Source: Candidatus Brocadiaceae bacterium (GTDB lineage Bacteria; Planctomycetota; Brocadiia; SM23-32). Taken from it: a DNA stretch of 13,967 nt. The stretch lies in NCBI GenBank assembly GCA_003567495.1, contig PWZK01000331.1, positions 1 to 13,967 of the forward strand, given 5' to 3'. The notes below the pieces were generated by a model. The model saw only the letters and a program-made list of their open reading frames with translations. It ran no database searches and was not told where the DNA came from. This document shows, piece after piece, positions 9,793-12,313 of this stretch. Numbering within the stretch: the first letter of the stretch is position 1; every line of letters starts with the position of its first letter. Made by a program: the position numbers and the translations under genes.

Positions 9793-10911
9793 TTACCCGG
9801 AAAAAGTGTCGGAACTTTCTATAAATCCCCCTCCAATCACGCGGCGTCCGCTGTAAAAAACCGCAGCCTGACCCGGTGCGGGAGCGGTCTGAGGTTCGTC
9901 AAAATCAACCCTGGCTTTTCCGCCGGCCGCCCTGCGCACCGTAGCCCATGTGCCATGATGCCGGAATCTTATCTTCACCACGCAACGAATCGGCTCCCCG
10001 ATCTCCGGAGCGCCGGATATCCAGTTAAGTTCGCCGGCCATCAGCGAGCTTTTCTGTAAATAACGCTTCTCACCGGCCACGACAACATTCTCCGAGGCGT
10101 CGATGCCCACCACATAGAGCGGCTCTTTCCACGCTATGCCCAGCCTTTTGCGCTGACCAATCGTATAGGACACCGCGCCATCGTGACGCCCGAGCTTTCT
10201 GCCCGAAACATGCCTTATCTCTCCGATAGTGCAGAGCTTAGGATATCGTTTTTTCAGCAGCCTCCCGTACCCCCCGTCCGGAAGAAAACACAGGTCCTGG
10301 CTCTTGGGTTTGTCATGGGTATTGAGACCCGCGCTTTTCGCAATTTTGCGCACCTGCTCTTTGGTCATGGCGCCGAGCGGAAAAAACGCTCGCGAGAGCT
10401 GCTCCTGTGAGAGGGAAAACAGAAAATAAGACTGATCCACGCCTTCAAGTCCCTTATGTAACTCATAGACCCAGTCCCGGCCGTTAAACAGCCTCTGCAC
10501 GTAATGTCCGCTCGCCACGGTTGAAACTCCCATGGCCATGGCCGTTTCGGCCAGCACCCCGAACTTCAGCAAATCGTTGCAGCGTATGCAGGGATTCGGG
10601 GTGCGGCCTTTTCGATATTCGCTACAGAAATTTTCAAAAACCGTCCTTTCAAAAATCTCTCGATAATCAAGCACGTAATGTTTTATGCCGAGCCTTCGGC
10701 ATACCCTGCGCGCATCCTCAATGCCGGAAACACCGCAGCACCGGCCCTTGACTTCACCACGCTCACCATAGAAAGGCAATCTGAAAGTAACCCCCGTGAC
10801 ATCCACGCCGTTTTCAGCAAGCAGCATAGCCGCGACCGAAGAGTCGACTCCGCCCGACATGGCTACAACGGCCTTCTGCGGCAGATCGTTTTGCTGTTTT
10901 TTTGTATCCAT
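9793..10911 (-). CDS. mnmA: tRNA-specific 2-thiouridylase MnmA
   Basis: A 372-residue enzyme that activates U34 of Lys, Glu and Gln tRNAs with ATP and replaces O2 by sulfur, giving 2-thiouridine needed for decoding accuracy. The PP-loop SGGVDSS (19-25) binds ATP. NPCIRCN contains C111, the probable nucleophile, and C108. KSQDLCFLPDG contains C208, the partner cysteine. SYTIGQRKRLGI (248-259) starts the central domain, and the C-terminal barrel ends near 365. C108, C111 and C208 would provide the three cysteines invoked in reports of an [4Fe-4S]-dependent MnmA, a point debated for the family. Start ATG 10911 has AAGG about seven bases upstream. The gene diverges from tatC over a palindromic promoter region. 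Persulfide sulfur would come from a cysteine desulfurase such as the NifS encoded 3.2 kb downstream; no TusA-E relay gene is in the window. Confidence 0.96.
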   Translation of the reverse strand: MDTKKQQNDLPQKAVVAMSGGVDSSVAAMLLAENGVDVTGVTFRLPFYGERGEVKGRCCGVSGIEDARRVCRRLGIKHYVLDYREIFERTVFENFCSEYRKGRTPNPCIRCNDLLKFGVLAETAMAMGVSTVASGHYVQRLFNGRDWVYELHKGLEGVDQSYFLFSLSQEQLSRAFFPLGAMTKEQVRKIAKSAGLNTHDKPKSQDLCFLPDGGYGRLLKKRYPKLCTIGEIRHVSGRKLGRHDGAVSYTIGQRKRLGIAWKEPLYVVGIDASENVVVAGEKRYLQKSSLMAGELNWISGAPEIGEPIRCVVKIRFRHHGTWATVRRAAGGKARVDFDEPQTAPAPGQAAVFYSGRRVIGGGFIESSDTFSG

Positions 10912-10984: not shown

Positions 10985-12313
10985 ATGAAAACACCTAATT
11001 CAAAAAATTCGCCCGGCGCATCAATGCCCATTGGCGCTCACCTGGAAGAGCTGCGGCTGCGACTGATCCGCAGCATTGCAGTAATAGTGGTCGCGTTCAT
11101 AGCGGCCTGGATATTCAGAGAGCGGATACTTTCCGTGCTGTTTCAGCCCCATATCACCACGGCTGCCGGAGCTCGCATAAGCTCAGCGCTGAAATTCAGG
11201 GATTATACGGAACCCGTGACCGTGCAGCTCAAAGCGTCGCTGGCGGTAGCGATCGGCGTCGCCGCGCCCTATCTGCTGTATCAGATATGGGCGTTTACCG
11301 CGCCCGGGCTTTTCGAAAACGAGCGGCTCTTCTTCACACGCCTTCTCGGGGTCTCGATCATCTGTTTTGCCGCCGGGGTGTTGTTCGGATATTTTTTGTT
11401 TATCCCCATAGCTCTTCGATTTTTGCTTTCTCTGGCGCCCGGCCACACCGAACCGATGCTGATGATGGGCTCTTATCTGTCGCTTTTTTTGATGATGTCG
11501 GTTGCGCTCGGTATCGTTTTCCAGACTCCGCTGGTCGTTTATTATCTGGTAAGGTGGGATATCGTAAGTATTGATTCAATCAAATCCAATCGCAAAAACG
11601 CCGTTATATGCGCATTTATTCTGGCCGCCTTTTTCACGCCCCCGGATCCCGCAACGCAAGTGATGATGGCCGTGCCGGTAATTCTCCTCTACGAACTCGG
11701 CATACTCGCAGCGGCGCCCGCCGGAAAAACGCTGATCCATTTTGCCAAACTGGCGGCGCCCGTTATTCTGGTCGTGTCGGCTGCCACCGCCTGGTACCAC
11801 CTGCGCCCTGTCGCAAGGCTCGATGATTTTGACGGGCTGGTAACCATAAACAATGAACCGGTGCACGAAGCCGGGGTTTTCCGCCTGCGACGCGGCTACG
11901 TGGTGGAGACCGGCAGCGACGGGAAGGCCCTGCTCTTTCCAGGACTCCGGGGAGAGCGGGAAAGCCTGGCGCTTGCGCCCGACACCAGGGTGATACTTCA
12001 CGGAAGCTCGGCAATCACACTTGAGAAAGGCGTTCTACTCGCAGGAATCCGCCGGGAAGGCTCCGGAACGGGTATAAAAGTGCACGGCGGACGCGTCGGG
12101 CCTATTCACGGTTTTGTGGAAATAGAAATAATCGACGAGCGCGCCTTCAAGGTCACGACTGCCACGGGCTCGGCCGAAGTTCTCTATGACGGGCAAAAGG
12201 CCAGTATTCCCGAAGGCCGGACGCGCACCTTCCGCCCGGAAGACGATGCGGCCGTCCGGGATGATATAATGGAGCGCTGGGGCGACTTTTTCACACCGGA
12301 CGTGCTTTTTTGA
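10985..12313 (+). CDS. tatC: Sec-independent translocase TatC with a FecR-like C-terminal extension
   Basis: TatC is the membrane receptor of the twin-arginine pathway, which exports folded proteins. Residues 17-250 are the TatC core: IGAHLEELRLRL (17-28), WAFTAPGLFENE (102-113, with F104 and E113 at signal-peptide-binding positions), and FFTPPDPATQ (216-225) before the last core helix. The position of the conserved E170 of E. coli TatC is Q180 here, aligned by eye. The protein is 442 residues, against about 240-270 usual. After the six core helices and a basic cytosolic stretch (K248-K255), a seventh hydrophobic segment (about 256-270) would bring residues 275-442 to the periplasm. That part (LRRGYVVETGSDGKALLF, then TRVILHG, ITLEKGVL and FKVTTATGSAEVLY) resembles FecR-type beta-rich domains. 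No TatA or TatB gene is present. Ribosome site CAGG is weak. TatC identity is confident; the FecR-like call is moderate. Confidence 0.9.
   Translation: MKTPNSKNSPGASMPIGAHLEELRLRLIRSIAVIVVAFIAAWIFRERILSVLFQPHITTAAGARISSALKFRDYTEPVTVQLKASLAVAIGVAAPYLLYQIWAFTAPGLFENERLFFTRLLGVSIICFAAGVLFGYFLFIPIALRFLLSLAPGHTEPMLMMGSYLSLFLMMSVALGIVFQTPLVVYYLVRWDIVSIDSIKSNRKNAVICAFILAAFFTPPDPATQVMMAVPVILLYELGILAAAPAGKTLIHFAKLAAPVILVVSAATAWYHLRPVARLDDFDGLVTINNEPVHEAGVFRLRRGYVVETGSDGKALLFPGLRGERESLALAPDTRVILHGSSAITLEKGVLLAGIRREGSGTGIKVHGGRVGPIHGFVEIEIIDERAFKVTTATGSAEVLYDGQKASIPEGRTRTFRPEDDAAVRDDIMERWGDFFTPDVLF

Follow-up and report, generated by a model that had tools for sequence, protein, structure and literature searches.

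The 13,967-nucleotide stretch of planctomycete DNA analysed here (the window) contains a tatC gene (10985..12313, forward strand) that, judged by its sequence, encodes a complete and normal receptor for Tat signal peptides, predicted to serve in export, plus a C-terminal extension composed of a seventh membrane helix (TM7) and a FecR-type beta domain. TatC-FecR fusions have been known since 2010, and the new finding is their occurrence in relatives without detected hydrazine synthase. As a speculative general picture, the class Brocadiia might share a Tat translocase that has the juxtamembrane half of a cell-surface-signalling regulator as a permanent outer domain, acquired once before anammox and acting as a built-in docking or gating ring at the exit side; anammox bacteria may have reused this domain, and other planctomycetes may have added an unrelated domain in like manner.

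The open reading frame is unbroken over 442 codons plus stop, and its product (P0001) matches PF00902 with residues 19-231, at profile positions 2-208 of 208 (204.1 bits, Pfam scan), and TIGR00945 with 184.9 bits versus a cut-off of 132.7 (NCBIfam scan). The protein has the TatC fold, and the complete TatC core recognised in the initial annotation is borne out (residues 1-246, six helices, 10985..11722, forward strand). M14 (11024, forward strand) is an alternative start, at which database entry P0002 (429 amino acids) begins. Residues E22 and E113 are invariant across 45 aligned sequences, and we take them to be the equivalents of E15 and E103 of Escherichia coli TatC, which are glutamates of the signal-peptide site. 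The genome of the window, a 2.16-Mb metagenome-assembled genome (MAG) of 387 contigs with 82% completeness, has a single TatC match, and the search for tatA/tatB elsewhere in the genome that had been suggested for this locus found one TatA/B/E gene, on a different contig. TatC E103A serves as an inactive control in the excerpted text of PMC13323110.

TM7 (residues 247-273; 11723..11803, forward strand) is a helix in the structure model of P0001, and the 19-residue Kyte-Doolittle peak of 1.82 lies at residues 249-268. All 45 aligned sequences have a hydrophobic peak at this place (1.48-3.02), and at least one basic residue precedes it in 44 of the 45. The initial annotation had proposed that a basic stretch and a hydrophobic segment at residues 256-270 carry the tail across the membrane. 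The seventh helix is supported, although the model assigns it to a longer segment, 247-273. By the Hessa scale, TM7 of P0001 is poor at +4.81, and TM2 is about equal or worse at +3.75 to +6.38; because this scale also rates TM2 poorly, the case for TM7 rests on the orthologues. Six core helices followed by TM7 would place the tail, and with it the FecR domain, on the outer face. This helix count supports the outward orientation that had been proposed, as does the TatC-FecR protein of Kuenenia, whose FecR domain Phobius, TMHMM and HMMTOP all predict to be non-cytoplasmic (Medema et al. 2010, PMC2881027, as excerpted).

An AlphaFold2 model based on an alignment of 45 sequences (P0001 and 44 relatives picked as full length) has a mean pLDDT of 84.6. 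Strands follow TM7 at residues 275-416, in agreement with the beta-rich tail that had been anticipated, and correspond to the FecR-type domain, which is predicted to face outward (11807..12232, forward strand). C-terminal helices (residues 427-441; 12263..12307, forward strand) lie in a region of low model confidence and include W432, which is invariant in the 45 aligned sequences. The tail of P0001 can be aligned along its length with the tails of its 44 relatives, and FecR (PF04773) is matched at E <= 0.01 by 38 of the 45, at best with 6.9e-10. The modelled tail also matches the fold of the juxtamembrane subdomain of PupR (PDB 6ovk). The FecR identity proposed from motif wording is thus supported by orthologues and by fold, but not by a direct profile match, as P0001 itself has no FecR match at E <= 1 in the Pfam scan and none in the NCBIfam scan. 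The FecR domain of the window's family is too diverged for Pfam. VIA-align gave no tail families beyond those named, and its rows mostly reflect the helical core. A protein-database search with the window tail (residues 240-442) returned one protein, its own entry; a Brocadia tail used as query returned 74 proteins from organisms that include Brocadia, Jettenia and Kuenenia, every one with a precomputed TatC domain.

The nucleotide sequences of close pairs indicate that the tail is under purifying selection and that the beta domain itself is selected. In the 70 usable pairs of 217 (core identity 70-98.5%), dN/dS has a median of 0.155 in the tail against 0.076 in the core. These pairs are not independent and derive from 30 sequences, all outside the window's family; three pairs from the window's genus are saturated at silent sites and gave no value. 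The tail evolves about twice as fast as the core, and P0001 is 26-43% identical to six members of its family in the tail and 46-71% in the core. Together, the conserved tail, the PF04773 matches of orthologues and the purifying selection amount to more than chance. Two TatC-FecR proteins, P0089 (636 amino acids) and P0091 (635 amino acids), have an extra acidic stretch, about 150-160 residues long, at the N-terminus, ahead of the TatC core.

Among the roles considered for the domain, we rank a docking and bracing function first, followed by TM7 as the working part and then by sensing. The first of these is the reading we lean towards, while considering it short of probable: the FecR domains would be an assembly brace and docking platform on the outer face of Tat, and not a sigma-factor switch. 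Since the helix ends at residue 273 and the first strand starts at 275, TM7 would enter the beta domain almost without a linker, and each TatC would carry a single, rigid beta domain close above the membrane. The three beta domains of a TatC trimer could then ring the outer face, where they would brace the assembly and dock a partner, which might be emerging cargo or an envelope protein. A possible precedent is the large outer insert of Myxococcus xanthus TatC, which takes up a homotrimeric fold and contributes to the contacts between TatC subunits in (TatBC)3 (PMC13323110, as excerpted). By analogy, this insert and the (TatBC)3 architecture point to ways in which an outer domain might brace the complex or crown it. 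Both M. xanthus and N. salsuginis TatC carry an extra domain on the outer face, but theirs are loop inserts in a six-helix protein (same source), whereas the window domain is C-terminal and stands behind a seventh helix. A common docking partner fits poorly with a tail whose rate of change is about twice that of the core and whose surface may not be conserved, and the TatCs of two genomes of family f3, which have no tail, also speak against this reading.

We think it rather unlikely that TM7 is the working part, either by bracing TatC or by doing a job of TatB/TatA at the edge of the complex, the beta domain being no more than a passive anchor. The presence of the helix in 45 of 45 aligned sequences is consistent with this reading, as is the single TatA/B/E gene in eight of the nine genomes of the window's family. 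However, many f5 and f7 genomes with two TatA/B/E genes retain the fusion, and purifying selection on the beta domain itself does not suit a passive anchor. A tie between the fusion and loss of TatB was also considered and was not upheld.

A sensor, as the initial annotation had suggested, seems less likely again. According to this reading, the FecR domain would detect cargo, a partner or the state of the envelope, and a signal passing through TM7 would gate Tat or reach a regulator. FecR-type domains do act in trans-envelope signalling (PMC7186176, as excerpted), and a protein kinase gene resides beside tatC in one genome (G009), which is one hint for signalling. In FecR/PupR sigma regulators (PDB 6ovk; same source), a membrane helix is likewise followed by a juxtamembrane all-beta subdomain. 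Unlike them, however, TatC-FecR has only this half: TatC takes the place of the cytoplasmic part, and the anti-sigma domain and the STN subdomain are both missing. Before TM7 there is only TatC, and no anti-sigma family was found in the Pfam and NCBIfam scans of P0001. The structural alignment of P0001 stops at PupR residue 251, STN comprises PupR residues 250-324, and P0001 ends at residue 442. Neither half of PupR alone bound the transducer domain, according to the excerpted PMC7186176. STN-domain proteins exceed the Pfam cut-off in one of nine genomes, with weak matches below the cut-off in four more, including the genome of the window. No sigma factor was found among 10 flanking proteins from six genomes (G001, G009, G010, G011, G012 and G024) or among the window genes scanned, and these 10 proteins include no signalling partner shared between genomes. 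Signalling of the TonB type is disfavoured by the missing STN and anti-sigma parts, by the scarcity of STN proteins and by the absence of a sigma factor among the neighbours scanned, and the sensing role is not supported. In G024, no FecR domain was found other than the tail of TatC. The gene that follows tatC in G028 may encode a histidine-kinase-type ATPase.

The fusion is nearly universal in the class. TatC was matched in 69 of 75 Brocadiia genomes (the exceptions are G006, G008, G018, G021, G047 and G074), and 67 of these are informative once two whose gene is cut before the tail (G070 and G071) are dropped. The tail is present in 65 of the 67, single-contig genomes included, which answers the call in the initial annotation for a count of homologues with the same fusion and for their phylum, Planctomycetota. 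This tally counts six broken genes as tailed: in G028 and G059 the tail lies in a different frame, in G036 it sits on a separate contig, in G049 it is partial, and in G056 and G041 the start is missing. For loci whose sequence was not fetched, the tally reads presence from the range of the TatC match. The fusion occurs in all seven informative genomes of the window's family, in the single f2 genome and in the single f4 genome, and P0001 was aligned over its whole length with TatC-FecR proteins of the anammox families, f5-f8. In a scan of the phylum, TatC was matched in 373 of 392 genomes, and outside the class none of the matches listed extends past model position 281. A search with nine non-anammox sequences scored 7998 candidates and gave 142 matches at E <= 1e-30; among the 120 of these that were listed, those matching the whole query belong to Planctomycetota or are unnamed.

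A careful tree of the core (65 rows and 230 columns, tail excluded; one gene, and not a species tree) places the fused TatCs in one clade (98/91), in which the anammox TatCs group together (99/99) and the members of the window's family form another group outside them (100/100). Duplicates (L001 and L033), fragments (L072 and L073) and 21 near-duplicate class members were left out of the trees, and three long branches were also removed from the careful one. L074 (from G071), whose tail is cut off, was assigned to the FecR group by its core, so 29 of the 30 rows in that group show the tail. Because the fused TatCs form one clade and the window's family lies outside the anammox group, the simplest reading of these sequences is that the fusion originated once, before anammox. 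An ancestor of the class would have gained the TM7-FecR unit in a single step, from a membrane protein resembling FecR, and the unit would have been inherited with tatC thereafter. A tail-only tree was poorly resolved and joined long branches, and was set aside.

The two tail-less genomes within the class (G010 and G012) belong to family f3, and each has a sole TatC match (L052 and L053). In a quick tree, their TatCs stand apart from the fused ones: they join first the TatC of G084, a different planctomycete that also lacks the tail (support 96), and next three TatCs from outside the planctomycetes (86). These proteins reflect either loss and replacement or a wrong class placement.

Medema et al. 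(2010; PMC2881027, as excerpted) reported a FecR domain at the C-terminus of TatC of Kuenenia stuttgartiensis (kustc0286), stated that it was alone in this among the TatCs identified by then, and speculated that the domain is involved in sorting to the anammoxosome. A paper on TatC diversity (PMC3827258) uses none of the words fusion, fused, extension and C-terminal, and a search mostly by title and start of abstract, which covered few subscription journals, recognised no further paper on the fusion; later work may exist. The Kuenenia protein resembles that of the window in its C-terminal FecR domain, predicted to be non-cytoplasmic, and in being the one TatC of its genome (same excerpt). However, Kuenenia is an anammox bacterium, whereas the window's family has no match to hydrazine synthase alpha and a FecR domain beyond the reach of Pfam. 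With hydrazine synthase alpha of G024 as query, 46 of the 75 class genomes match. In 40 of these the match is nearly full length with at least 63% identity, and all 40 belong to f5-f8; four genomes have fragments (G034, G036, G048 and G063), and the f2 and f4 genomes (G009 and G011) have distant partial matches of 24-53%, the best in G011. No match was found in the nine genomes of the window's family, the two of f3 or the one of f9. Since the enzyme was also missed in 17 of 61 f5-f8 genomes, which are MAGs, its absence from one MAG means little, and absence from nine of nine means more. The f9 genome (77% complete) has a TatC that groups with anammox TatCs, yet no enzyme match.

The proposal of sorting, in which the domain would guide Tat, or the cargo of Tat, to the organelle of anammox bacteria, was made for Kuenenia when it was the fusion's only known bearer. 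It is now very improbable as an account of the domain: all seven informative genomes of the window's family have the fusion and none of its nine genomes has a hydrazine synthase alpha match, while the f2 and f4 genomes are likewise fused and have only distant relatives of the enzyme. Fusions in relatives without detected hydrazine synthase weaken sorting to the anammoxosome as the origin of the domain, and anammox lineages may have reused it for their organelle. The window's family, f2 and f4, set against f5-f8, provide a comparison set for asking what the domain does. The hydrazine synthase alpha domain PF18582 matches none of the nine genomes of the window's family; this broader family matches, besides f5-f8, G009 and G011 and two genomes outside the class (G077 and G093). 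The matches in G009 (16) and G011 (11), which are non-anammox class members, lie in long proteins. An 877-amino-acid frame in G011 (C183) shares 34-53% identity with hydrazine synthase alpha in pieces and may represent a sister of that enzyme.

The initial annotation raised the concern that an assembly join or frameshift put a FecR gene behind tatC, and the window is indeed one contig from a fragmented MAG. Such an artefact is excluded, since 65 of 67 informative genomes, single-contig ones among them, share the architecture. Separately, in L037/L086 (G028) and in L038 (G059) the tatC frame is broken after TM7 and ahead of the FecR domain, by sequencing error or in reality.

A second type of TatC tail occurs elsewhere in the phylum. 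Nine TatCs from families f16, f45 and f79 (L039, L119-L125 and L133) resemble those of the window's type in that their core is followed by a hydrophobic, seventh-helix-like segment and a tail about 170-200 residues long, but their tail is unrelated to FecR and is predicted to be alpha/beta (pLDDT 77.9). Kinship with FecR was rejected (hhalign probability 0.07), no Pfam family exceeded its cut-off in the eight tails scanned, and a fold search with the model gave no PDB match at E <= 0.001. These TatCs cluster together in the quick tree (support 98). Because the two tails are unrelated, a domain seems to have been added behind a seventh helix at least twice in this phylum. The outer face of TatC has thus been given added domains more than once, and such repeated additions suggest that Tat may interact, on its exit side, with partners unseen in E. 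coli.

The window neighbours of tatC are, by Pfam, housekeeping genes: those for an IMP dehydrogenase and a tyrosine recombinase, nifU- and class-V aminotransferase genes, nadA, those for a molybdate-type ABC transporter, mnmA and one for a MarC-family protein. An Rfam scan gave no match at gathering thresholds, and a promoter and terminator scan gave nothing beyond consensus matches. Among the neighbours scanned in six genomes, mnmA adjoins tatC only in the window and in a genome of the same genus (G001), and it is divergent from tatC in both (window 9793-10911; G001, L082:10464-11777).
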